DNA from: Hominimerdicola alba 8
Lineage (GTDB): Bacteria; Bacillota; Clostridia; Oscillospirales; Ruminococcaceae
Assembly: GCF_000178155.2 (NCBI RefSeq)
Contig: NZ_ADKM02000045.1
Span: 1 to 40,003, forward strand
Reading direction: 5' to 3'
Length of the DNA: 40,003 bases
Under the pieces are notes generated by a model. It ran no database searches. It was given only the letters and a program-made list of their open reading frames with translations, and was not told the origin of the DNA. Both the position numbers and the translations under genes were made by a program. Below, one piece after another: positions 4,930 to 18,787 of this stretch. How positions within the stretch are numbered: the first letter of the stretch is position 1; the number at the start of each line of letters is the position of its first letter.

Positions 4930-5042
4930 TTGTATCTGTCCTTTCGGTTTTTATCGTAAAACCAACTGTCCGAACATAACCAAAATAATCGTTGTTAAGG
5001 TGTTGCCTACGGACCGCTTGTGGCAATACCCATTTCACGCTC

Positions 5043-5284
5043 GTCCTGCCATACATGAAAGCAGAGTACCGTGACAACGAAAAGGAGTACCTTGAGTCGA
5101 GGTGTGTGCAGAATCGTCCGAAGCACACCCAAAGTCCGCTATCCAAGTACGCAACCGCAGTATGATAGACCGAGCAGACCTTGTGGTATGCTGTATACAG
5201 CATAAAAGCGGAGGAGCTTATGCCACGATACGCTATGCAGAGAAACAGGGCAAGAAGATAGTGAACCTCGCAGATGAAAACTGA
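5043..5284 (+). pseudogene. C-terminal fragment of a DUF1273/YpsA-like SLOG protein, frameshifted
   Basis: Two adjacent frames together reproduce the end of a DUF1273-type SLOG (nucleotide-sugar-binding) protein: LPYMKAEYRDNEKEYLESR from 5046, then after a frame change near 5100 HPKSAIQVRNRSMIDRADL, VVCCIQHKSGGAYATIRYAE and QGKKIVNL to the TGA at 5282-5284. The N-terminal half is missing. Such genes are often found next to mobile elements and phages. No upstream start or ribosome site fits, so I read it as a remnant. Confidence 0.7.
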
Positions 5285-5397
5285 ATAGGCATCTGAAAAG
5301 AAAAATAGGACGATACCTTTGAGCTATTAGGTATCACCCTTATTCGTTATTATAATGATTGTTCTTGTCGGTAGGTACTGTGTGGGTTTTCGTGTTA

Positions 5398-5490
5398 CTA
5401 TTTGGAACGGGGATAGTTATCGTCTTTCCCCATAGAAATACGACACTCCCAACGTCCGTCCCTGCGTTTGTATACTGTTCCTTTGCTCAT
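5398..5490 (-). CDS. 30-aa ORF resembling the N-terminus of a tyrosine integrase
   Basis: A strong ribosome site (GGAGGT 7 bp before the ATG, minus strand) precedes a 30-residue frame starting MSKGTVYKRRDGRWECRI. This matches the arm-DNA-binding (AP2-like) start of Tn916-type integrases, but the frame stops after DDNYPRSK. It is either a truncated integrase start or a small independent protein. Confidence 0.5.
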   Translation of the reverse strand: MSKGTVYKRRDGRWECRISMGKDDNYPRSK

Positions 5491-5555
5491 AATAATACCT
5501 CCGATATAGTCTTTATGATTATTCTACCAAACTGACAAAATCGCTTGATCTTTCC

Positions 5556-5584
5556 TTGACATACGGAGGGATTTTTGGTATAAT
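5556..5584 (+). promoter_or_regulatory. Consensus promoter with no gene downstream
   Basis: TTGACA at 5556-5561, a 17-bp spacer and TATAAT at 5579-5584. No coding frame follows before the hairpin terminator at 5754-5800. Confidence 0.7.
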
Positions 5585-5590
5585 TTATAA

Positions 5591-5800
5591 TATATAGTTA
5601 TATCCGGTTACGGCATTTTTGCCCGTATCGTCAAATCAATAATTTTGCGAAAAGATAGGATCAGTTTTGGCTTGATTTCTGCTTTCATGTTTTTTTAAAG
5701 CTATCTTGTTGTTTTTATCGAAGATATTGAAACTTACTATTGCATACAAGAATAAAAGAGTATCAGTCTCCCGTATTATAGGAGATTGATACTCTTTTTA
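5591..5800 (+). ncRNA. Putative orphan transcript (about 210 nt)
   Basis: The stretch between a consensus promoter and a strong intrinsic terminator has no convincing frame. It may be a small RNA, or a leader left behind when its gene was replaced. The 3' terminator is shared with the convergent truncated recombinase gene. I do not recognise an RNA family. Confidence 0.3.
5754..5800. terminator. Strong bidirectional terminator
   Basis: An 18-bp stem with one or two non-Watson-Crick pairs (AAAAGAGTATCAGTCTCC / GGAGATTGATACTCTTTT) and a 9-nt loop. T-runs follow on both strands. It serves the truncated recombinase gene on the minus strand and the orphan promoter on the plus strand. Confidence 0.8.
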
Positions 5801-5838
5801 GTTGTTATTTTGTTTTGGCGGTAAAGGTCACTTATGGG

Positions 5839-6249
<411 letters not shown>

Positions 6250-6288
6250 TTACCTCTCTTTCCGACAGATACAGCAAGCTATGTTATC

Positions 6289-6317
6289 ATTATAGCGCAA
6301 TATACTGTCAATGGCAA
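6289..6317 (-). promoter_or_regulatory. Promoter of the truncated recombinase
   Basis: On the minus strand TTGCCA (6312-6317), a 17-bp spacer and TATAAT (6289-6294). TTGCGC immediately precedes the -10 box, a feature shared with two other promoters in the island. Confidence 0.65.
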
Positions 6318-6335
6318 TGCGCTGAAATGACGATT

Positions 6336-6515
6336 TTACACAGCCTGCTTCTCAGGTTCTTGTCCGGATTCACCGAGCATTTCTTCACACTCACGATTAA
6401 TCAGCCTTTGCAGGATATCCGTGAGGTGTTCCTTTGAAGCAGGGTTGAATACTAACGTCACGATGTAAGTTGTTCGTCCGATCTTGTACTCGGACACATT
6501 GTTTTCTTTGTTCAT
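6336..6515 (-). CDS. tnpW: TnpW-like transposon protein
   Basis: This 59-aa protein carries the pattern of transposon-encoded TnpW proteins of Tn4451-type elements: EYKIGRTTYIVTLVF followed by LTDILQRLINRE. Its exact role in transposition is unknown. I chose ATG 6515, with GGAAAG upstream, because it gives the usual length of about 60 aa. An in-frame ATG at 6581 would add 22 residues rich in Lys and Arg. It lies upstream of, and in the same orientation as, the truncated serine recombinase, as expected for an element of this class. Confidence 0.65.
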   Translation of the reverse strand: MNKENNVSEYKIGRTTYIVTLVFNPASKEHLTDILQRLINRECEEMLGESGQEPEKQAV

Positions 6516-6664
6516 AGCGATCTTTCCAGCCTTGAAATTCAAGGCGTGCTTTCTTATCTCTCTACGCATTGGTGAGGGCATCGCTTTCTTTCTCTTACCC
6601 TCTACGCAGCCGCAAGGTCAGTATTTCTTCCTTTCGACCGACCGAGTATTTTGCGACTATGAAT

Positions 6665-6694
6665 ATTATAGCGCGCAATGAAGCCCATTGTCCA
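6665..6694 (-). promoter_or_regulatory. Promoter upstream of tnpW-like gene
   Basis: On the minus strand TGGACA (6689-6694), an 18-bp spacer and TATAAT (6665-6670). The bases just before the -10 box are CATTGCGCGC, as in the recombinase promoter at 7376-7404. Confidence 0.55.
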
Positions 6695-6729
6695 GCCGCA
6701 TTGCGCACGAACTTTGGAATGATTTTCAG

Positions 6730-6745
6730 TTTTCCCCAGTGCAAT
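6730..6745. repeat. Left copy of a 16-bp inverted repeat bounding about 8 kb
   Basis: TTTTCCCCAGTGCAAT at 6730-6745 is the exact complement of ATTGCACTGGGGAAAA at 14712-14727. The pair encloses the HEPN remnants, the recombinase, the oriT/MobC region and the 215/975-aa operon. It may mark the ends of one mobile unit or two copies of a regulatory element. Confidence 0.5.
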
Positions 6746-6803
6746 TTATACTGGTAATATGAAAAGCACCAAACTCCTGAATCGATTTAGTTATTCTGAT
6801 AAT

Positions 6804-6851
6804 AACAAAAACTACCACCTATGGGTATAATAAATTCCATAGGTGGTAGTT
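6804..6851 (-). terminator. Terminator of the HEPN gene remnant
   Basis: A perfect 15-bp stem (AACTACCACCTATGG and its complement) with a 12-nt loop, ending in TTTTTG on the minus strand. It lies 5 bp beyond the stop codon of the HEPN fragment. Confidence 0.8.
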
Positions 6852-6856
6852 AAATA

Positions 6857-7348
6857 CTAAGATTCCTGATTATTAGAATCAAGAGTTTCCATTGCTTTGT
6901 TAAATAAATCATGATGATGAAACAGGGATGAACTTATAATCAGTTTTATATCTGCAGGAGAAATTCCAGCTCTATCAAGCATTTGTGCATATATTATCAC
7001 TTCAAAAAGATTTATTAACTGACAATCTTCAAGCGAAAGAGCCGAATGCTCTCCTCCATGAACGATTGTTCCACGCATTTCCGTCAATTTCTTAGCAATA
7101 TCATTTATTTGTTTTTCTGTCAGCATCTTAACTGATCTGTATTTTTTATGCCTATATAATATGTCAGGAAGCAATTCTTCTATTGAAGAAGAAAGAATAC
7201 TATAAGCATTTACAATTTTAGCTTTCTGACCAAATTGTGTTCCAAGTTGAAGGATTCTTTGCCTGGAATTCTCTATAAATTGTTTTTCATCATTCCTCTT
7301 TTGAACGGGCTTTTTCCGAAGTAATGGCTCTGCACCGCAGACCTCAGA
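6857..7348 (-). pseudogene. C-terminal HEPN domain of an ApeA-like defence protein, 5' truncated
   Basis: The open frame runs on the minus strand from just after an in-frame TAG (7349-7351) to the TAG at 6857. It has no ATG or GTG start and no ribosome site. It is helical, and the motif RGTIVHGG gives the R-x4-H signature of HEPN ribonucleases, followed by a second long helical pair (LINLFEVIIYAQMLDRAGIS). The arrangement resembles the HEPN end of ApeA-like abortive-infection proteins. A natural terminator follows. The missing N-terminal sensor part may be the frame at 9308-9967, which lies in the opposite orientation. The start at 7174 (TTG) is unlikely to be real. Confidence 0.6.
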
Positions 7349-7375
7349 CTACCTGAAAAAATTTCCGAAAGGTAC

Positions 7376-7404
7376 TTGCTTTTTTCGGCATTGCGCGCTA
7401 TACT
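7376..7404 (+). promoter_or_regulatory. Promoter of the intact serine recombinase
   Basis: TTGCTT (7376-7381), a 17-bp spacer and TATACT (7399-7404). The -10 box lies inside the dyad GCTATACTTATAGC and is preceded by CATTGCGC, so a repressor could bind over it. Confidence 0.7.
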
Positions 7405-7448
7405 TATAGCAATGTTGAATTAGGCTGCTTTGGAAGAAAGGAGTAGTA

Positions 7449-9071
7449 ATGTTAGCAAAGCAGACTGATTATATCGTGGGGATATACCTGCGACTTTCAA
7501 AAGATGATGAACGTGCAGGCGAATCCCTTTCCATAGAAAACCAGAGAAGAATTCTCACAAACTATGTCCGTGAACAGGGCTGGACGATCTATGATGAGTA
7601 CGTCGATGACGGTATCAGCGGAACGTCCTTCAACAGACCGGGTGTGCAGAGAATGCTTGACGATGCCAAGAACGGCAAGATCAACCTTATCATCTGCAAA
7701 GACCTGTCCCGTTTCGGACGCAATTACATCCAGGTAGGTCAGTATACGGACTACATTTTTCCGATGTACAATATCCGTTTCATCGCACTGAACGACGGCA
7801 TTGATACGCTCAACTCTGACAGTGCCGATATGGATATGATGCCTATCCGAAATGTGTTCAACGAATGGCACGCAGCCAACACTTCCAAGAAGGTCAGGGC
7901 TGTTATCGCCGCTAATGCAAAGGCAGGCAAGATGATGACTCCCTATTGCCCATACGGTTATGTTAAGAGCGATGATGAAATGCGTACTCCGGTCATTGAT
8001 CCTTACGCCGCAGGAATCGTTCGCCGAATCTTTGAGATGTATGCCAGCGGTATGAAGCCTTTGCAGATTGCAACGGTCTTGAATGAGGAAGGTGTGCTGA
8101 CTCCGTTCGACTACTATTACAAGCGTATCGGCAAGCCTAATCCCTACAACCACTCGCATCTGTGGAGTGGCAGAAATCTCGAAAATATCCTGAAAAACCC
8201 GATATATATCGGGACGCTCGCTCAGCTCCGCACAACAACGGTGAGCTACAAAAATCATCAGCGTATTAACCGTGATGAATCAGAGTGGGCGGTCATTGAG
8301 AACAACCATGAGCCCATTATTTCAAAGGAGCTTTGGGATAAGGTTCGTGAAATCGAAAAGTCCGTCAGCAGAGGAAAGCGTGACAAGAAGGGAGAACTTA
8401 GTCCTCTGTCGGGATTGCTTTTCTGTGACGGCTGCGGCTGGAAAATGCGAAAAGCAAGCACAGGTGGCGGCGGATATATCTGCGGATACCACAACCGCTT
8501 CGGCAAAAACTATTGCTCAACGCATTACATCAATCGGGAGCTTATAGAGGGAATCATTCTTGCGGATATACAGGAGATGTGTGAGCTTGCCAAAGACGAA
8601 AAGGCTGCAACAGCAGAGTTCCTCAGACGCAAGAGAGCGTTTATTGATGTTCAGAGCATTTCCGATACCAAGCGTATGAAAACTGTCGGCAGCCGTCTTG
8701 CGGAGCTTGACAAGCTCATTCAAAGCGTGTATGAAGATAAGGTTGCAGGCAGGATCGAGCCGGATATGGCGTTTGATATGCTCGACAAGTATCAGGCTGA
8801 AAAGAAAGCTCTGAAAGAAGAGTATGATGAAATGAACGCCCGTTCCGAAGCAGAAATGCAGGACGAGGAAGATGTTGCGGAGTTCATCAGCCGCCTGAAA
8901 CGCTATGCAGGAGCGACAGAGCTTACCCGTGAGATGTGCCTTGACCTGATTGAATATGCAACAGTCGATGAGAACAACAAAGGTCACAAAGACCGACCTC
9001 GTGTGATACACGTCTATTACAAGCTGATAGACAAACCGCTTACCAACAAAAACAGACTTGCCCTGACATAA
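7449..9071 (+). CDS. Large serine recombinase, TnpX/TndX type, intact
   Basis: This 540-aa site-specific recombinase excises or integrates mobile elements through a serine-linked DNA intermediate. The N-terminal resolvase domain (about 1-150) has the likely catalytic Ser17 in YLRLSKDD plus VDDGISGTSFNRPG and CKDLSRFGRNY. The recombinase domain follows (PYGYVKSDDEM; LKNPIYIGTL). A zinc ribbon is visible as CDGC and later CGYHNRFGKNYC, and a coiled-coil is likely at about 395-480. Length is normal. AAGGAG lies 6 bp before ATG 7449. The gene sits between the two halves of a HEPN gene that face opposite ways, so it may have driven an inversion there (inference). Confidence 0.95.
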   Translation: MLAKQTDYIVGIYLRLSKDDERAGESLSIENQRRILTNYVREQGWTIYDEYVDDGISGTSFNRPGVQRMLDDAKNGKINLIICKDLSRFGRNYIQVGQYTDYIFPMYNIRFIALNDGIDTLNSDSADMDMMPIRNVFNEWHAANTSKKVRAVIAANAKAGKMMTPYCPYGYVKSDDEMRTPVIDPYAAGIVRRIFEMYASGMKPLQIATVLNEEGVLTPFDYYYKRIGKPNPYNHSHLWSGRNLENILKNPIYIGTLAQLRTTTVSYKNHQRINRDESEWAVIENNHEPIISKELWDKVREIEKSVSRGKRDKKGELSPLSGLLFCDGCGWKMRKASTGGGGYICGYHNRFGKNYCSTHYINRELIEGIILADIQEMCELAKDEKAATAEFLRRKRAFIDVQSISDTKRMKTVGSRLAELDKLIQSVYEDKVAGRIEPDMAFDMLDKYQAEKKALKEEYDEMNARSEAEMQDEEDVAEFISRLKRYAGATELTREMCLDLIEYATVDENNKGHKDRPRVIHVYYKLIDKPLTNKNRLALT

Positions 9072-9080
9072 TGTCAGGGC
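9060..9080 (+). terminator. Short hairpin overlapping the recombinase stop codon
   Basis: GCCCTGAC / GTCAGGGC with a 5-nt loop spans the stop codon. The following sequence is AT-rich but lacks a clean T-run, so termination may be weak. Confidence 0.5.
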
Positions 9081-9231
9081 ATACATTAAAAATTTATTTT
9101 ATCCATTTGGGATAGTTACCGTGCTTGCTGGAATAGAATCGCCACTCCGTTGGCGTGATAATATTTGACCGTTATAAGTATGTGTATTTTTAATCATGTT
9201 TGCAATCAAGTTATTATTTTCGCATTTTTAG

Positions 9232-9260
9232 TTGATAATACTGATAAAATATAGTATAAT
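9232..9260 (+). promoter_or_regulatory. Promoter of the 9308 gene remnant
   Basis: TTGATA (9232-9237), exactly 17 bp, then TATAAT (9255-9260). It is followed 48 bp later by ATG 9308 with AGGAG upstream. Confidence 0.75.
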
Positions 9261-9307
9261 TAAAATGTGCTCTTAGAGCCATACATCAATTTATGATAGG
9301 AGCTTTT

Positions 9308-9967
9308 ATGGAACAATATTCGTATTTTACTTTTCATAATATTCCATGTGTGCTTATTGAAAAAGAAGATAGAATAATTTTGATACCTTGTAATGAAGAA
9401 GATCACAAATTACTCTATAATTACCTGCAGGATTCTGACTATGAAATAGACTACTCAGGAAGCATCTATGAATATAAGCACGCATTCATTCATAAACAAA
9501 TTATTGGATCTGAGTCTGTTGATTTATATCCTGATTACATTATTCACTCAATATCTCCGAAAATCTGCTCTATGGAAATGACAGGTCCGGCGATAGATGA
9601 TTTTTTCAGCCCCCCAACATATTTCTACTATAAACATCGAAAAGGCGATAAAAACTTTGGAGATATTGTTTACAATAATGAGGTAGCTGATAAATGGATT
9701 ATTGAGTACAAAGATAGCAAGATTACGATTACTCTCTATTACGGCAGTGTGCTTAGAAGCGTTGCGGTAAAGCACTTGTTATGGGGATTTCAAAAAGCTC
9801 CAGTGTGTTCGGCTTCACTTTTACCACTAATGATACAGAGAAACTATGACCTTCTACATATCAATACCAAATTATTCTGCCATTCGTTAAGTACCGCCGA
9901 GATATTCTCCGTTATGCACAAACAGACTATCCAAAATTCAGTGAGTTTTTTCGCAGACTATGCTTAA
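9308..9967 (+). pseudogene. Putative N-terminal half of the ApeA-like gene, frame disrupted
   Basis: ATG 9308 has AGGAG 5 bp upstream and a good promoter, and the frame gives 219 aa. The first 160 residues look like a real protein, with MEMTGPAIDDFFSPPTYFYY and KWIIEYKDSKITITLYYGS. After LRSVAVKHLL the sequence appears to jump between frames: SSSVFGFTFTTNDTEKL is in another frame near 9803, and FVKYRRDILRYAQTDYPKF is in that frame near 9880. This suggests frameshifts. The ID-FFSP region reminds me of N-terminal sensor domains of ApeA-like proteins (from memory, unverified). The HEPN end at 6857-7348 could be its displaced C-terminus. Alternatively it is an intact unknown 219-aa protein. Confidence 0.45.
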
Positions 9968-10237
9968 CGAAGCTGTTATTATTTTGGTAATAACTATTGA
10001 GAAGAATTTTCACCAGATTGCCGCCCTCATTGCGCTGAAACTGCGCCGTACCAGATTACAATTTCAAGAGTGATGATGAATGAGGGCATCACGCAGGAGC
10101 GTGAGCGAGTATGACCGCCGACCGAAGCGGCGGAGAGATTGAAGTCGCATAGCTCCAAATTCGCTGACGGAGCATCGAAAGCCTGCGAGACACAGAGATA
10201 CAGCAGGCAAAAAACCGCGCGACAGCGCAACAAAAAT

Positions 10238-10374: not shown

Positions 10375-10959
10375 ATGGAAAATGCAAAACGCAAGAGGGG
10401 CAGACCGCTCAAGCGCAAGGTTATGGAGTTCGAGGGTATGACCTACGAGGGAGCAATCAACTATGCTCTGGACAAAGAGGTGCAGTCCGAGCTTGATGAT
10501 ACCCTTGCACACAAGTCTGAGGGCGAGCTTACCGATGATGAACGCAAGTATCTCAAACGCAAGAGGGAGAAGAAGTCTTACACGCTGAATGTTCGCTTTA
10601 CGGAATCGGAAATGCAGGATATTCTTGCAAGGTGTGAGCAGTACGGTTACAAGAACAAAACCGAGTATATCCGTGACTGTGTTCGGGCGAGGGTAGACCT
10701 CACTCCCGACCGCACCGAGATTGCCGAGTGCAAGCTGATGTTCCCAAATAACCACACTATCATTACCGTGCCCGAAAGTCCTATGTTCAACGCACCCGAA
10801 GCAGCAGAGGTAACTGCGCCGAGACTGGCACTTGTGAAACAGGCTGGAATGCAGTACGCTGAGATCGGAGAAATTGACGGTGATCTGCTTGCGGAGATAT
10901 GCTCTCCGATGATACCGGAAGATGTGTATGCAAGTATCTGTAATAATGAATCTGTATAA
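10375..10959 (+). CDS. MobC-like relaxosome accessory protein
   Basis: This 194-aa protein begins with a basic tail (KRKRGRPLKRK). Its central part, YTLNVRFTESEMQDILARCE followed by QYGYKNKTEYIRDCV, looks like the ribbon-helix-helix / MobC segment of plasmid mobilization proteins, which help the relaxase bind oriT. The C-terminal third is unusual for MobC and unrecognised. AAGGAG lies 9 bp upstream of ATG 10375. A relaxase gene normally follows, but here a hairpin and a convergent gene follow, so the mobilization module is incomplete unless the relaxase acts in trans. Confidence 0.7.
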   Translation: MENAKRKRGRPLKRKVMEFEGMTYEGAINYALDKEVQSELDDTLAHKSEGELTDDERKYLKRKREKKSYTLNVRFTESEMQDILARCEQYGYKNKTEYIRDCVRARVDLTPDRTEIAECKLMFPNNHTIITVPESPMFNAPEAAEVTAPRLALVKQAGMQYAEIGEIDGDLLAEICSPMIPEDVYASICNNESV

Positions 10960-11067: not shown

Positions 11068-13995
11068 TTAGCATATATCACCTAATTGCTTTTTAATAAA
11101 ATCATCAAATGTGTTTATCTTCTCATCAACATTAATATGCTGATGCTCAATTAATATTGCATTGGACGATGAAATAAAGGATAAATGCATTTCACTTCTG
11201 TCCATAAATAGTTGCACTATCTTATCTGAATTGTTCTGAAGATAGAAGTATAGAACCAAAAACTCAATGTCATCATTCAAATAATAAAAATAATCAAGAT
11301 CATTTCTGGTTTTACTTACTCTTTGGAAAATATTATCAAATAACACATTCCAATCATTGATATCAAAGTAAGAATACACTTGTTTAATAATATACATTTG
11401 TCCATGTGAACGGAAGCCATAATCGCTATCAGAAACAAGGTACGGGATAACATATTTAGAAATAAACTCTTTCTTGCTTTGATCAGGAAGATGTTCTACG
11501 ATTTCAATGATTAAGCTATATAAACTGCCATTATGATACATCAAAATTCCAGCAATCTCTTTCTCGTTTTCAACTGTATAACCTTCTGTATCAAGCCGAT
11601 CAAGTATATATGAATATTGTTCATCTTTCTTTTCATGTGAGTGCAAATAATCCGCATCTTTCATATTAGGTGTGCAATTACCATTAGCTATTAGTTTGGT
11701 TTTAATATCAGCATCAGATATTGAATCGATGAGTCTATGGTTATAGTCGTATAGCGTTTCAAGTTCGTTGTTGTAAGGACGATGTTCATTGTTTTCTATT
11801 TCTGCTTTCAACCAAGCATTTGTCAGCTTATATAACAGTATTCTTTGATCATCATTTGTAAACAGTTTATCAATTTTATCATATAACACTGAAAGAACTT
11901 CTTGTCGCCAATACGTCAAATTATCTGGTGTGTTTTTTAACTCAAATAAGGCATCAAGATATTTAAAGCCGAGTTCGCATGCTACGTCAAATAATGCATC
12001 ATCTGCATTGACCCGATTATCTCCTATTTCGTTGGCATAATCACATAGGGTCAAGAGATTCATTCCATAAGACAGGATCTTCTCAGTATTATTTGGAAGA
12101 AACTTATAGCATTCTAAGAGGCCATTTAATGTGTAATCCTTTCTGCCAACATAGCCCAGAATTCGTAGGTTCATTATTTTTTGAATTTTATTTGCAAATT
12201 CAGTTTCGTTGAACTTGTTTAGTAAGGAAGCTATGTGCGTGCAGATATACTCCAAGTCATCATATTCGTTCTGCCATACTATTCCGTTTGAACCGCACCA
12301 AAACTCTGCTATTTGTAAGAATAATTCCTTTTTATCAAACAAATAGTAGAGTTGTGCAAGTTCATCGATGTAATGCGGATCTTTTCCAGTAAATATATTC
12401 AGCAAATCAGTACATAGTTTTGTATTTTCTGCATATTCAGGTGCATTGACAAAGTATTGTAAGAATACTCTCTTGAAATATGGGAGAACTTCAAATGTGC
12501 CGCAATCATTGCATGAGCCAGCTCTATTTCTTGTAAAGTACGTCAAATCACAGGCTATTCTTATTATATCACTATAGGTTCCTTCGCTATCATAAAAAAG
12601 CGAGTTTATATTTTCCGCTAATTCTTTTAGCTGTATTGCAGGCTCATAACCACGATTAGCAGCAGTAATGCGTTTGTTTTTCAGAGTCTCTTTATATAGC
12701 GTATCCCAGTCGATTGTATTATCATACTTATACAAACAAAAATATGCTTTAAAGAAGCCCTGAATACCGTGAATCTTATATTCTGAAATATCGCCACCTA
12801 ATGAACCAAAAAAATCCATTTTGATAACGGCTTCATGTAAGATAGATTGTATTTCCTCGGACGGAATCTTTTTCAATAACATAGAGAAACATAATTCTGT
12901 CAGAGTATGTATAGATATATGTTTAGAACTGCAAAGTTTCGTGGATAAAAAAGCAATTGTCTCATTACTGATATTAGGATTCTTGGTTATTACAGAAACA
13001 TAATTGTGTAGATCTGCAATACCATAAGTGTGAAAAGTGAAAGTTTGTTGTATGTCGGAAATAGAGCAAAAATTTGCACTTGCATCTAACCAACCTGTTA
13101 CAAATGCGACATAACAATCGTCAAGAGCAAGCTGTCGAAGTACATCCGGATTATAAAACCTACAAATATATCCTATTTTTTCAAACTCATTTTGATTGGC
13201 ATCGTCGTCTGTCAGCGTTTTTTCAATCTCCAAGCTGGAGAAATATTCGTCGTATAGTTTGTACGCCCTTTCACATTCATTCATTTTTAGGAGTTTATAA
13301 ATATCATCGATAATCTGTGTTATTGCGTCAGAAGATTTTAGTACATATTTTTCGGAATGAGTAAGCTTACTCGACATTTTTGCCTCTATAAATCTTTTTT
13401 CCTGCTCATAATAATTTACACACTCTATTAATTTTGAGATTGTAGTTGAAACTAAACTAAGCCTATGTGTCATTTCAAAATCATAATCGCCCTTAAATAA
13501 ATCAACTACATTACTGAATTGGTCTACCAATCTATCTATTGGAATCTGATAATTTATGGATCCAATAATATAATCGGGATTATAGAATTCAAAAATCTTA
13601 TCGAGATTATGTGTTTCAAGATTTAGGTTGAACAAAATATCGTATTTAAACTCGTCTAAAGTTTCGTTTTTTATAATTGATGAAGTTACAGAGTCTATGA
13701 CATTTGCAAAGTTGCTATTTGCACGTATAACTTCTTTAAAATAGAGCCTGACATCATTGTGAAAAACATAATATCCGAAGTCATCTGAAACAATAACAGG
13801 ATAAAGTTTGTGAAGTACTGCTTCAACAGTAAGCTTATCTGATTCACAAAGATCAACTAAGTTTTCAATTGATATTTTTCTGGAAGTAAATGCATAAATA
13901 GCTTCTAATTTTAATAACAAAATCTCAGATTCTGAGGATATGGAACTCACTATCCACTCATAGTAACGGTCAATATAGTTGCCAGCATTATACAT
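11068..13995 (-). CDS. Large helical-repeat protein resembling the C-terminal part of a STAND defence protein
   Basis: The 975-aa cytosolic protein lacks signal peptide and membrane segments. Residues about 1-95 look like the winged-helix segment that follows a STAND NTPase core (YEWIVSSISSESEILLLKLE, then ISIENLVDLC and VFHNDVRLYF). The remaining ~880 residues are alpha-helical, as in TPR-like sensor arrays. No Walker A or Walker B motif is visible, so the NTPase is absent. ATG 13995 was chosen because it overlaps the stop of the upstream gene (ATGTATAA) and has AAGGTGG upstream; ATGs further up lie inside the upstream gene. The region is markedly AT-rich compared with core genes, which suggests transfer. 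A defence role is inferred from context only. Confidence 0.8.
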   Translation of the reverse strand: MYNAGNYIDRYYEWIVSSISSESEILLLKLEAIYAFTSRKISIENLVDLCESDKLTVEAVLHKLYPVIVSDDFGYYVFHNDVRLYFKEVIRANSNFANVIDSVTSSIIKNETLDEFKYDILFNLNLETHNLDKIFEFYNPDYIIGSINYQIPIDRLVDQFSNVVDLFKGDYDFEMTHRLSLVSTTISKLIECVNYYEQEKRFIEAKMSSKLTHSEKYVLKSSDAITQIIDDIYKLLKMNECERAYKLYDEYFSSLEIEKTLTDDDANQNEFEKIGYICRFYNPDVLRQLALDDCYVAFVTGWLDASANFCSISDIQQTFTFHTYGIADLHNYVSVITKNPNISNETIAFLSTKLCSSKHISIHTLTELCFSMLLKKIPSEEIQSILHEAVIKMDFFGSLGGDISEYKIHGIQGFFKAYFCLYKYDNTIDWDTLYKETLKNKRITAANRGYEPAIQLKELAENINSLFYDSEGTYSDIIRIACDLTYFTRNRAGSCNDCGTFEVLPYFKRVFLQYFVNAPEYAENTKLCTDLLNIFTGKDPHYIDELAQLYYLFDKKELFLQIAEFWCGSNGIVWQNEYDDLEYICTHIASLLNKFNETEFANKIQKIMNLRILGYVGRKDYTLNGLLECYKFLPNNTEKILSYGMNLLTLCDYANEIGDNRVNADDALFDVACELGFKYLDALFELKNTPDNLTYWRQEVLSVLYDKIDKLFTNDDQRILLYKLTNAWLKAEIENNEHRPYNNELETLYDYNHRLIDSISDADIKTKLIANGNCTPNMKDADYLHSHEKKDEQYSYILDRLDTEGYTVENEKEIAGILMYHNGSLYSLIIEIVEHLPDQSKKEFISKYVIPYLVSDSDYGFRSHGQMYIIKQVYSYFDINDWNVLFDNIFQRVSKTRNDLDYFYYLNDDIEFLVLYFYLQNNSDKIVQLFMDRSEMHLSFISSSNAILIEHQHINVDEKINTFDDFIKKQLGDIC

Positions 13996-14635
13996 AATTA
14001 CCCGCCACCTTTTCATAAGCAAGTCGACTTATATTATATGCATATTTTTCTATGTCATTTTTAGAAAAATTAATGTGATAACCATTTATCAAGCTATCGA
14101 TAGTATACTTGAAACTCGTATCATAGTCTGGTGTAATATAGTCAAAGCGTATCAGATTGTAAACGCTTTGAGCGAAAGCATATAATTCCTGTTGGGATAT
14201 AGGATAAACGATGCTATCATTTGCTTTTGCAAAGCTATTTATTAATATTGGATTGTACATGATTTCGAAGCATAAATTTGCAAAACAATCGAATTCATCA
14301 ATATGCTTTTCTCCCATGTATAAACAAAGGAAAACAAACGACGGGCGATAATTGACATTATCAATCACATTATACTTTTCAATTTCTTTTTTACAAGCAT
14401 CAATCATATTGGAAAAGAATACTTCTGGAATCGCAACTATCTCATCATTAATATCTATGATGTGAATGCTTGTTCTTATTTTATCCAAATAAAAGTATCC
14501 GCATATGTTATAGTATTGTTTTAAAACAGAGACAGCAACACGTTTAAATAATACAAATCCTCCATCTGTCATTTTAGAATTAATATCTCTAAAATTGTTA
14601 CTTTGGATATCATAAACTTTAATCACTTCATTCAC
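13988..14635 (-). CDS. Unrecognised 215-aa protein, first gene of the 215/975 operon
   Basis: I do not recognise this protein. It appears to be soluble, AT-rich in codon use, mixed alpha/beta at the N-terminus (FVLFKRVAVSVLKQYYNICG; TSIHIIDINDEIVAIPEVFF) and helical towards the end. No nuclease or NTPase motif is evident. Its start is GTG 14635, because an in-frame stop lies just upstream and no later ATG has a better ribosome site; an ATG encoding M22 (MTDGGF) is an alternative. It overlaps the 975-aa gene by 8 bp and shares the promoter at 14666-14694. The tight coupling suggests that the two proteins act together. Confidence 0.75.
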   Translation of the reverse strand: MNEVIKVYDIQSNNFRDINSKMTDGGFVLFKRVAVSVLKQYYNICGYFYLDKIRTSIHIIDINDEIVAIPEVFFSNMIDACKKEIEKYNVIDNVNYRPSFVFLCLYMGEKHIDEFDCFANLCFEIMYNPILINSFAKANDSIVYPISQQELYAFAQSVYNLIRFDYITPDYDTSFKYTIDSLINGYHINFSKNDIEKYAYNISRLAYEKVAGNYV

Positions 14636-14665
14636 CTACTTTGCTGCTATATGCTTGTTTCCCAT

Positions 14666-14694
14666 ATCATAGCATAAATACCCGAAAAAGTCAA
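14666..14694 (-). promoter_or_regulatory. Promoter of the 215/975-aa operon
   Basis: On the minus strand TTGACT (14689-14694), exactly 17 bp, then TATGAT (14666-14671), about 30 bp before the GTG start. Confidence 0.75.
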
Positions 14695-14711
14695 TCTGCA
14701 TCACAGCGCAT

Positions 14712-14727
14712 TGCACTGGGGAAAATC
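14712..14727. repeat. Right copy of the 16-bp inverted repeat
   Basis: ATTGCACTGGGGAAAA, the exact complement of 6730-6745. It lies 17 bp upstream of the -35 box of the 215/975 operon, between that promoter and the divergent promoter of the small DUF6061-like gene. Confidence 0.5.
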
Positions 14728-14777
14728 CACATTTTGCTGCGCATTTCACAAGAATTATTACAATCATTTCAATGTGC

Positions 14778-14806
14778 TGGACTCCGGTAGTTTTATCGGA
14801 TATAAT
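14778..14806 (+). promoter_or_regulatory. Promoter of the DUF6061-like/ssb operon
   Basis: TGGACT (14778-14783), 17 bp, TATAAT (14801-14806), 33 bp before ATG 14840. Confidence 0.65.
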
Positions 14807-14839
14807 GGAGTCACGATAAAACTTTTGGAGGTAACGATT

Positions 14840-15049
14840 ATGTTGAAAACACCCGAATTGGCAATGCCGAGATTGCGCAAGGTCACTACTGTCTGTAACG
14901 GAAAGCGTGAGGTCTGGACGGACTATGAGGAAGCAAAAGCATATTTCCTGGAACTTATGATGTCAACTGACGGCGAGGAGCATGAACGTGCAGAGTGCGT
15001 TTATATCCAACTCACGCACGGGCTTGACGAGTGTTCTGATGAAGACTGA
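14840..15049 (+). CDS. Small DUF6061-like protein (complete copy)
   Basis: A 69-aa acidic protein, MLKTPELAMPRLRKVTTVC at the start and HGLDECSDED at the end. ATG 14840 has GGAGGT (14827-14832) 7 bp upstream. It is the full-length paralogue of the partial gene at 1-184. Function is unknown; the family name is from memory. It lies 12 bp before an ssb-like gene and shares its promoter, so a role in mobile-element DNA maintenance is plausible but only inferred. Confidence 0.8.
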   Translation: MLKTPELAMPRLRKVTTVCNGKREVWTDYEEAKAYFLELMMSTDGEEHERAECVYIQLTHGLDECSDED

Positions 15050-15061
15050 AAGGAGTAGACC

Positions 15062-15391
15062 ATGTTGAATAAGATCATGATGACAGGACGTATCACCACA
15101 GATTTGAACGTTGTAACCGAAGATAATCACAGTTACTGCAAATTCGGCATTGCCGTTGACCAGCCGAAACGAATTGGTATTGATACCGTTGAGACAGACA
15201 CGTTTACCTGTCTTGCATTTGATGACAACGCTAAATCAGTAAGTTTTCTCTACTCAAAAGGTGGAACGATCACATTTGTTGGTTCGCTCCGAAATGCTCC
15301 CGATAACGCCGCAGTTCTCATCGTGGAGGAGCTGCACTTCAAGAACAGGTTTGCTGTTAAGGTAGACATTAATTCGGAACAGCTTTTCTGA
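15062..15391 (+). CDS. ssb: Single-stranded DNA-binding protein, short form
   Basis: This 109-aa protein shows an SSB OB-fold: MLNKIMMTGRITTDLNV at the start, the YCKFGIAVDQPKR strand and the ITFVGSL strand. Chromosomal SSB has a flexible tail ending in acidic DDIPF residues for partner binding; this one ends soon after the OB-fold without it, as many mobile-element SSBs do. AAAGGAG lies 7 bp before ATG 15062. The gene follows the DUF6061-like gene in one operon and ends before a pair of hairpins. It probably protects single-stranded DNA during transfer or replication of an element. Confidence 0.85.
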   Translation: MLNKIMMTGRITTDLNVVTEDNHSYCKFGIAVDQPKRIGIDTVETDTFTCLAFDDNAKSVSFLYSKGGTITFVGSLRNAPDNAAVLIVEELHFKNRFAVKVDINSEQLF

Positions 15392-15482
15392 TAGTGCAGG
15401 CAGTATGCTCTCAGGCGAACGGAAATGGTCTGTAATGGCTTTCGGATATGCTTACCGTTTGTTAATCTATAAATATGAAACG

Positions 15483-15835: not shown

Positions 15836-16444
15836 ATGGAGAAAACAGGTATAACTATTACAAAGCGTAAAGACGGGCGATATGTCGGGAAGTTCATCGC
15901 TGAATACGCCGATAACGGCAAAGCACAATATCACTATGTCTATGGCAAGACCTACGAAGAAGCCGAAAACAAGGTGCTGATAGGGCGTGAGATAGCTTCT
16001 CGCTATCTTTCGGGCAGATATATCACTGTCAGCAAGGTGTATCGGGAATGGCTGAATGCTGTGGTGAACCGAGTCAAGGAATCCACTCTTGCCAACTACC
16101 GGAACAAGTTTGAAAAGCACATTCTCCCTGAATTCGGAGATATTCCCTGTGCCGACCTGACCGCAGGCAGGATCAATGCCTTTATAAACAAAAAGCTCGC
16201 AGACGGGTTATCTGCAAGCTATGTTCGTGATATATTCACTGTTTTCAAAACGATGCTGAAATATGCTCAGGAAGAGTACGGATTTAGGCTTTCTCTGAAA
16301 AACGTCACACTCCCGAAAGCCGAAAAGAAACAGGTAGAGAAGATCAGCGATGAACAGCAGAAAAAGCTCGTTTCGTATCTGAAAGCAAATATGTCGATTA
16401 CTGCTTTCGGTAACTTGTTGTCAGAACAGCATCTTGAAAATTGA
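15836..16444 (+). pseudogene. Truncated tyrosine integrase (Tn916-like), catalytic domain lost
   Basis: The frame encodes 202 aa. Residues about 1-60 form the AP2-like arm-binding domain (ITITKRKDGRYVGKFI), and 65-150 form the SAM-like core-binding domain (VYREWLNAVVNRVKESTLAN). The catalytic domain begins with ISDEQQKKLVSYLKANMS but breaks at ITAFGNLLSEQHLEN, where relatives continue into the LxTGLRxGE box. The catalytic Arg-His-Arg-Tyr residues are therefore missing, and the product is probably inactive. GGAGGG lies upstream of ATG 15836. The break adjoins the PLD/SNF2 gene, so the junction is probably a recombination scar. Confidence 0.85.
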
Positions 16445-16609
16445 ATATTGGCAGGTTTACGATGTTTTGTGAGCATTCTCCTGAATGTATCTATTTCAAG
16501 AAAACTATCTTCACCCCGGATACTTTACATAGTATAACACCGCATTTATCAGGTATGCAGGTTGAATGAACAGTTATCTCTGAATTATGCAATAGTCAGG
16601 GGGATTGCA

Positions 16610-18787
16610 ATGGCACACGATACTTTATATATAGTTGACAACAGCAGCGAAAAGGCTTCTGTAAAGAATTATCTTTCCGAATGGTGTTCGATTTCCAAGC
16701 AGATGGATATTGCAACAGGATACTTCGAGATCGGCGGACTGCTCACTTTAGGGGAAGATTGGCAGAAACTCGATAAAATACGCATTATTCTTGGCAATGA
16801 AGTTACAAAACGCACAAAAGATATCATAGAAGAAGTAGCACAGACTATGATCGAGCGTTTCCGTACCAGTATGGAACGTGAGCAGGAAAAGAATGAGTTT
16901 CTGATAGGCGTTCCTGCTATCATCAAAGCTATGAAAGCAGGCAAAATTGAGTGCCGTGTATTTGACAGCAATAAATTTCACGCTAAGGCATATATCACAT
17001 ATTTCCGTGACGAATACAGAGATCAGTTTATCTCCGCTATGAATGTTCCTTCGGGATATGCCCTGGTCGGATCAAGCAACTTTACAAAGGCGGGACTGAC
17101 GCAGAATATCGAGCTGAATGTTCAGGTAAAAGATGAAGTTGAACAGCTTCAGAAGTGGTTTGATGAGCATTGGCAGAACGGCACGGATATTACCGAGGCT
17201 GTGTTAAAGGTCATGGAGATGCACTGCCGTGAGTTCAGTCCTTATGATGTTTATCTACGCTCCATGTATGAGTATTTCAAGAGTCATGAGGAAACTGTAT
17301 CCGAATGGGAAGAAAATGAATCGGTCGTGTATAAGGGCTTGTCGCAGTATCAGAAAGACGGCTATAACAGCCTTATCCAGATAGCAGAGCATTATTCCGG
17401 CGCTTTCCTTTGTGACGGTGTCGGTCTGGGCAAAACCTTTGTCGGAATGATGCTGATAGAGCGTTTCGTAAAGAAGGAGCGTAAAAATGTCGTACTGATC
17501 GTTCCTGCATCTGCAAGGGTATCCGTATGGGAAGTAACTATAAAACGCCTTATCCCTGAGATATTAGAGGGCTTCTACCCGTTCAAGATCATAAGCCATA
17601 CCGATCTGCTGCTTGATAAAAATCAGAATCTGATGAATCAGATTGCACAGCAGGCGGAAATTATAATCATAGACGAAGCACATCATTTCCGCAACCGTTC
17701 CTCCAACAGATACAGAAAGCTGTTTGATATGATGCAGGCAGGCTGTAAAAAGCAGATGTTTATGCTGACAGCCACACCGATCAATAACAGTTTCCTCGAT
17801 TTACAGCATCTTATTGAGTTGTTTACTCACAGAAAGGAAGATTATTTCTCCGCTGCTCCGTTGGGTATCCACAGCCTTGCAGGACATTTCAAAAAGATGG
17901 AGAAGCAGCTCGATCAGGTATCGGGTACAGCTATCAGCGATTCTCTTGATATATCCGGTGATATTATCCGCGCAGACAAACTTGTGACGGAGCTTGTTGT
18001 ACAGCGCAGTCGTGCCTACGTTAAGCGGAGTCTGCTGACTGAGCAAGGTAATAATGTCCTTTTCTCCGAGAGAAAACCGCCGACAGTTGCGAACTACTCC
18101 CTCGAAAAGTCATACGGCAGGCTGATAAAGGACTTCAAGGAGTCTTTTGACCGCAAGGACAAGAACGGAAAAACGATAACGATCTTGTCCCTTGCCATTT
18201 ATTCGCCATACAGCGATGATTATTTCATCGCGGACAAGTCCAAGATGGACGAGATGGTAACAGGTCGTCAGCAGCAGGTGGTAAACCTCATCCGTATCTT
18301 GCTTTTGAAACGCTTTGAAAGTTCTATCGAAGCATTCAAGGAGACTTGTATCAAAATATATATCCGTCTGAACAAGTTCCTTAACGATTACAAGGATACT
18401 GATGCGAGCAGTAAGCGACGTGTTGATAGAAAACAGGCTGAACAGGAAGACATTCTGCGGTACGCCGAGGAATATGCAGCTCTGAATCAGACCTCTATCG
18501 AAGATACCGCAGCTTACAGCTTTGTCGGTGACGGTACAAACGAGGTCGTCAAGCCCGAATACAAGAACGGCAGGGTGTACATCAGCAAAACACAGTATTT
18601 CGATAACGTACCGCAGGCACAGTGGGAGCAGTATATCGGCGGTTATCAGCCGTTACAGAAGTGGCTCAAAGACCGCAAGAAGACTGCGCTCTCCGCTGAG
18701 GACATCGAGCATTACAAGAAAATCATCGCAGCCCTCAGGCTCACCGAGGAGCTTATGACGGAGATAGATCAGGTTGTGGAGTTCTGA
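16610..18787 (+). CDS. PLD-nuclease / SNF2-helicase fused to the tail of a type ISP restriction-modification enzyme
   Basis: This 725-aa chimera has three parts. An N-terminal phospholipase-D-like nuclease domain comes first (FHAKAYITY and GSSNFTKAGL, about residues 135-185). A SNF2-type RecA1 domain follows, with Walker A GVGLGKTF, the DEAH box and TATPIN. Then come a helical stretch (LLLKRFESSIEAFKETC) and a C-terminal ~90 residues (GRVYISKTQYFDNVP; IGGYQPLQKWLKDR; MTEIDQ) that match the C-terminal specificity domain of type ISP restriction-modification enzymes. RecA2 helicase motifs V and VI and the whole methyltransferase are absent. A deletion fused two neighbouring genes in frame near 18500. 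ATG 16610 follows AGGGGG at the right spacing. The protein is probably a non-functional helicase; its nuclease domain could still fold. Confidence 0.8.
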   Translation: MAHDTLYIVDNSSEKASVKNYLSEWCSISKQMDIATGYFEIGGLLTLGEDWQKLDKIRIILGNEVTKRTKDIIEEVAQTMIERFRTSMEREQEKNEFLIGVPAIIKAMKAGKIECRVFDSNKFHAKAYITYFRDEYRDQFISAMNVPSGYALVGSSNFTKAGLTQNIELNVQVKDEVEQLQKWFDEHWQNGTDITEAVLKVMEMHCREFSPYDVYLRSMYEYFKSHEETVSEWEENESVVYKGLSQYQKDGYNSLIQIAEHYSGAFLCDGVGLGKTFVGMMLIERFVKKERKNVVLIVPASARVSVWEVTIKRLIPEILEGFYPFKIISHTDLLLDKNQNLMNQIAQQAEIIIIDEAHHFRNRSSNRYRKLFDMMQAGCKKQMFMLTATPINNSFLDLQHLIELFTHRKEDYFSAAPLGIHSLAGHFKKMEKQLDQVSGTAISDSLDISGDIIRADKLVTELVVQRSRAYVKRSLLTEQGNNVLFSERKPPTVANYSLEKSYGRLIKDFKESFDRKDKNGKTITILSLAIYSPYSDDYFIADKSKMDEMVTGRQQQVVNLIRILLLKRFESSIEAFKETCIKIYIRLNKFLNDYKDTDASSKRRVDRKQAEQEDILRYAEEYAALNQTSIEDTAAYSFVGDGTNEVVKPEYKNGRVYISKTQYFDNVPQAQWEQYIGGYQPLQKWLKDRKKTALSAEDIEHYKKIIAALRLTEELMTEIDQVVEF

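Follow-up and report, generated by a model that had tools for sequence, protein, structure and literature searches.

The described systems closest to the locus analysed here are the Avs (AVAST) STAND NTPases that have an N-terminal nuclease, and bacterial NACHT proteins. Avs proteins are described as tripartite, with an N-terminal effector, a central NTPase and a C-terminal sensor, and changes in the Walker A motif are reported to abolish Avs5 immunity (PMC12931631). The locus lies in a 40,003-nucleotide stretch of Hominimerdicola alba 8 (contig NZ_ADKM02000045.1, positions 1 to 40,003), the whole of which is called the window below. Its large protein has full-length relatives in Ruminococcus albus AR67 (L002) and in an uncultured Ruminococcus MAG (L003), which resemble the Avs and NACHT proteins in having a P-loop NTPase with a Walker A motif, a long C-terminal part, a place in mobile elements and, by mostly weak matches, a putative nuclease-like N-terminus. 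These relatives differ from Avs in having a 215-aa partner, in matching the Avs1b model over the NTPase part only and, for L002, in having no match in the PDB, whereas the window copy differs by having neither nuclease nor NTPase. Comparison of the sequences makes it highly likely that the large gene of the window arose by deletion from a gene for an Avs-like protein of nuclease-STAND-repeat layout, the pair being cargo of a mobile element; the remnant is most likely inactive.

The preliminary description had reported two tightly coupled genes overlapping by 8 bp, and both frames are indeed open, on the minus strand, at the following positions:

11068-13995, minus strand: 975-aa residual large protein (open reading frame; alignment to L002 and L003)
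13979-13981, minus strand: deletion junction, a 3-bp CAA microhomology (DNA alignment to L003)
13988-14635, minus strand: 215-aa partner gene with a GTG start (open reading frame; intact; 99% identity to L003, 65% to L002)

The large frame encodes 975 aa from its ATG; with the upstream TTG at 14022 as the start, the product would be 984 aa long. The residual protein consists of the first five residues of the full-length gene, followed in frame by the post-NTPase segment and the helical C-terminal (sensor) part. Searching both window proteins with a Walker A pattern gave zero matches, in agreement with the earlier claim that neither gene has a Walker motif; the same pattern matched the full-length L002 relative once (GLPGAGKT, residue 285). 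Against Pfam and NCBIfam, the 975-aa protein gave sub-cutoff rows only and the 215-aa protein zero rows. PADLOC returned nothing for either protein, and PDB sequences left the 975-aa protein unmatched at E up to 10 and the 215-aa protein unmatched at E up to 1. Scanning the window with Rfam and for tRNA gave no useful match. Judged by the motif and family searches, and by the 508 codons (Walker A included) that are absent relative to L003, the 975-aa protein of the window lacks the P-loop NTPase with Walker A that marks a STAND NTPase. The proposal that the rest of the protein is made of helical repeats fits the all-helix pattern of its predicted model (three-row alignment), a pattern that gives weak support because the mean pLDDT is only 38.6. 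The model of the 215-aa protein (mean pLDDT 39.6, three-row alignment) was not usable.

When the 975-aa protein was compared with genome contigs, 17 stretches matched, and two of these, L002 and L003, encode a relative. In both, a GTG-started 215-aa gene stands immediately before the large gene and overlaps it; the coupling of a STAND-type sensor part with a 215-aa partner, as first described, is upheld by these two close relatives. The R. albus AR67 pair consists of the same two genes and carries the nuclease-NTPase part that is absent from the window:

L002 423-1070: partner gene
L002 1036-5517: large gene, in the same overlapping order as in the window

The large frame of L002 is 1493 aa long; that of L003 is 1243 aa long and reaches the contig end, its final ~54 bases diverging from the window. 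Both large genes encode about 500 extra N-terminal residues, in the same frame and at the same place, comprising a Cap4/PDDEXK-like segment and a P-loop NTPase. Over the shared part of the large gene, identity to the window is 99.4% for L003 and about 89% for L002 (about 87% at the protein level in the common part for L002, against 65% for the partner).

DNA alignment with L003 located the difference precisely. Exactly 1524 bp, or 508 codons, are absent from the window, in frame, and a CAA is common to both sides. Window 13979-15393 aligned with L003 6584-7998 at 97.7% DNA identity and window 11859-13981 with L003 9520-11642 at 99.4%, the L003 alignment edges at the junction being 7998 on the left and 9520 on the right. 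The first five residues of the window protein match the beginning of the L003 gene, and from residue 6 the alignment continues at L002 residue 523, directly after the NTPase. This fits the preliminary description, in which the large protein begins with a segment like the winged helix that follows a STAND NTPase, and a distant Leptospira relative (below) spans that boundary. Neither protein nor DNA searches recovered the missing segment elsewhere in the window's genome (98.8% complete, not closed); as a control, the same queries matched two of three genomes, those of both relatives and not the window's. Removal of the missing part to another place in the genome by inversion or shuffling was rejected, since the part is absent as protein and as DNA and the controls worked. 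Because the near-identical L003 and the more distant L002 both keep the segment, we place its loss on the window's branch. The presence of the N-terminal part in both close relatives, the absence of 1524 bp and the lack of the segment anywhere else in the genome together argue that the window gene is a deletion derivative. The deleted form was seen in one genome and the full form in two. A new motor-free arrangement, the central suggestion of the preliminary description, was not borne out: the nuclease-like and NTPase parts are present in both close relatives, and what sets the window apart is a gap of exactly 1524 bp that has microhomology at its junction.

We then considered what the lost part encodes. 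Pfam AAA_22 and NPHP3_N scored above cutoff in the N-terminal part of L002 and L003, and Pfam Cap4_nuclease scored below cutoff in both (E 4.9e-4 in L003, 0.17 in L002). With PADLOC, the NTPase part matched Avs1b (1.6e-9 in L003, 6.1e-9 in L002) over model positions 201-395 of 1924 only, a SAVED-associated PDDEXK model matched L003 only (2.1e-6), and an 'Effector' endonuclease model matched L003 at 1e-5 and L002 at 0.0075. A D-x(n)-QxK pattern, which we take to be the nuclease motif, was seen by eye in the full-length relatives. The L002 full-length protein was unmatched among PDB sequences at E up to 1. L002 and L003 thus have the P-loop NTPase with Walker A of a STAND NTPase, and neither matches an Avs family model over its length.

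Among plasmids, the full-length protein had matches in 18 records, none of which covered 80% of its length, and six of these were fetched (four Leptospira/Klebsiella loci, one Serratia and one Sphingobium). A Leptospira plasmid protein of 1963 aa, annotated 'ATP-binding protein' (NC_025136.1), is collinear with the full-length relative over residues 10-787 (26% identity, E 3e-68), yet it is longer, and no 215-aa partner was detected nearby. The collinearity begins at the same place and runs from the nuclease-like part and the NTPase through the segment after it to the first repeats, so covering the NTPase/post-NTPase boundary. From the domain matches and this collinearity, an Avs-type protein of nuclease-STAND-repeat layout is the most likely identity of the full-length form, which nevertheless has no Avs model match over its length. 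Two of the four Leptospira/Klebsiella plasmid loci hold shortened genes, so that the window is not unique in losing parts: in L014 (L. noguchii plasmid, 5070-10108) the nuclease-like part is missing and the gene is broken into two frames, and in L013 (Leptospira plasmid, 5004-6848) a 1845-bp gene, against 5892 bp in L012, is followed by an IS3-family transposase. By eye, a frame next to the split gene of L014 resembles a transposase.

At the three distant plasmid loci compared, L014 and L015 among them, the partner was not detected by tblastn (best E 0.009 in L015 and 0.011 in L014). The match in L015 falls in a short 108-aa frame whose end is about 1.5 kb short of the Klebsiella STAND gene, and no plus-strand frame of at least 60 aa lies between the two. 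At the Serratia plasmid locus, a 158-aa hypothetical gene precedes the STAND gene, and the Sphingobium locus carries no annotation. The idea of a partner that is diverged but conserved beside distant relatives was rejected on the weak tblastn results at the three loci. Among phylum genomes, the partner alignment found one of 398, the window's own. The 215-aa protein is a co-encoded partner that is recognised by no library searched. The preliminary description had held that a decayed STAND gene would show itself by homologues with an NTPase and by a 215-aa gene not conserved beside them; the homologues do carry the NTPase, whereas the 215-aa gene stands beside the close homologues and went undetected at the three distant loci.

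The large protein is rare in the genome samples searched. The 975-aa protein was present in one of 396 family genomes, the window's own, and in 2 of 29 genus genomes, the window's own and G398, whose match is 100% identical to the L002 protein; judging by this identity, G398 and L002 are probably the same strain. With the full-length alignment, three of 394 order genomes were found at E 1e-10: the window's own, G725, with a C-terminal remnant of 345 aa, and G732, with an NTPase piece of 109 residues that contains five stops. No useful match was obtained in viral contigs (large protein, full-length alignment and partner alignment), in phages (residual large, full-length and partner proteins) or in plasmids searched with the residual large protein and with the L002 and window partners.

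Between L002 and L003, dN/dS is 0.14 for the deleted part, 0.18 for the sensor part and 0.25 for the partner; all three are under purifying selection. The sensor parts of the window and L003 differ by 5 nonsynonymous and 6 synonymous changes over 700 codons (dN/dS 0.21), and the partners by 2 nonsynonymous changes and 1 synonymous change. The sensor differences are not clearly neutral, are too few to decide on selection after the deletion, and some of them may be older than the deletion. Within the partner gene (L002:423-1070 against L003:7342-7989), dS is 1.49 in the first 160 codons and 0.24 in the last 55, with about 0.34 in the large gene; the contrast suggests recombination within the partner gene or a far earlier divergence of its front portion.

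The two genes are flanked on one side by a NikA-like gene and on the other by genes for a 112-aa protein and an SSB-like protein, in the following surroundings:

7449-9071: serine recombinase, near the pair
10375-10959, plus strand: NikA-like mobilisation protein (sub-cutoff Pfam match; L002 also has part of this flank)
14711-15049, plus strand: 112-aa protein, found with the SSB-like gene in related elements
15062-15391, plus strand: SSB-like protein, found with the 112-aa gene in related elements
15836-16444, plus strand: truncated integrase of 202 aa (only N-terminal and central domains matched; the L003 copy is 315 aa)

At E 1e-10, 11 of the 29 genus genomes have a match to the SSB-like protein, and in seven of these the identity reaches at least 62%; matches below that level may be ordinary SSB relatives. 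Nine of the ten matches of at least 62% outside the window were fetched, and nine proteins from five of these loci (L032-L036), chosen from the stretch that runs from the recombinase, if there is one, to the 112-aa gene, were scanned with PADLOC. Three of the five loci gave matches. In L032, on contig C14 of the window's own genome, an AbiLi/AbiLii-like (RloA/RloB) pair lies between the recombinase and the 112-aa and SSB-like genes; L034 encodes a CHAT/coiled-coil protein on the far side of a NikA-like gene; and L035 gave a weak HEPN-like match. The scanned frames of L033 and L036 had no PADLOC match. These matches agree with the mobile, defence-like setting proposed at the outset, and they support an element family with variable, often defence-like cargo more than any particular role of the window pair in defence. 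A 741-aa frame in the window's element (16562-18787, plus strand) looks like a second deletion fusion: its PLD-Snf2 helicase part (PADLOC HKD+Snf2, residues 45-608 aligned to model positions 22-535 of 948) is followed by the final ~90 residues of a Type ISP/IIG restriction-methylation enzyme (model positions 982-1075 of 1096).

In the explanation that we propose, the intact operon would comprise two genes, Avs-like and carried as defence cargo of a mobile element. From its N-terminus onward, the large protein would have a Cap4-like nuclease segment, then a P-loop NTPase of the STAND/NACHT type, then a winged-helix-like segment, and finally a long helical sensor. On the model of Avs proteins, the helical part would sense or bind an invader protein, upon which the NTPase would switch or oligomerise and the nuclease would cut DNA. 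In the window, an in-frame deletion of 1524 bp at the CAA microhomology would have removed the nuclease-like and NTPase parts, joining the 5 N-terminal residues to the sensor. The window copy, having no NTPase, is expected to be inactive, because Walker A changes are reported to abolish Avs5 immunity (PMC12931631); by the same analogy, the remnant is most likely inactive in defence.

It seems to us unlikely that the motor-free sensor is a selected working form, in which it would serve, together with the partner, as a decoy, as a regulator or as a dominant-negative subunit, or in which the effector would be the partner itself. Such a form would account for a junction that is in frame, a start codon and an 8-bp overlap that are kept, 975 codons without a stop and an intact partner. 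However, one random deletion in three is in frame, the form was seen in one genome, the motor is present in both close relatives, and searches of the window's genome found neither another copy of the sensor part nor the missing part, on which it could act as a regulator. That the motor-free helical sensor and its partner bind invader proteins, or full-length STAND subunits from incoming elements, as a decoy or brake is improbable to a like degree; if true, one in-frame deletion could convert a bacterial immune receptor into a regulator.

There is very little likelihood, too, that a fault of assembly produced the deletion and that the cell carries the gene at full length. An assembly of 136 contigs at 98.8% completeness leaves some room for such an error, but the junction is internal to a contig that spans 40 kb or more, the absent 1.5 kb, which a mis-join would usually leave somewhere, is on no other contig, and a 3-bp junction repeat should be too short to mislead an assembler. 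An ancestral motor-free form, to which the relatives added the nuclease-NTPase part, is extremely improbable: we found no point in its support, the N-terminal part is present in both L003 (99.4%) and L002 (about 89%), the distant Leptospira relative is collinear, and more than one gain, or a gain and then this exact loss, would be required.

With loss of the nuclease-NTPase part as the preferred reading, the locus can be explained without invoking a motor-free STAND system, and a false lead is removed. The intact R. albus AR67 pair, a 215-aa protein with a nuclease-like STAND protein, is unrecognised as a system by the libraries searched and is a candidate for phage-defence testing. The window locus itself provides a base-resolved example of the loss of such genes within mobile elements.
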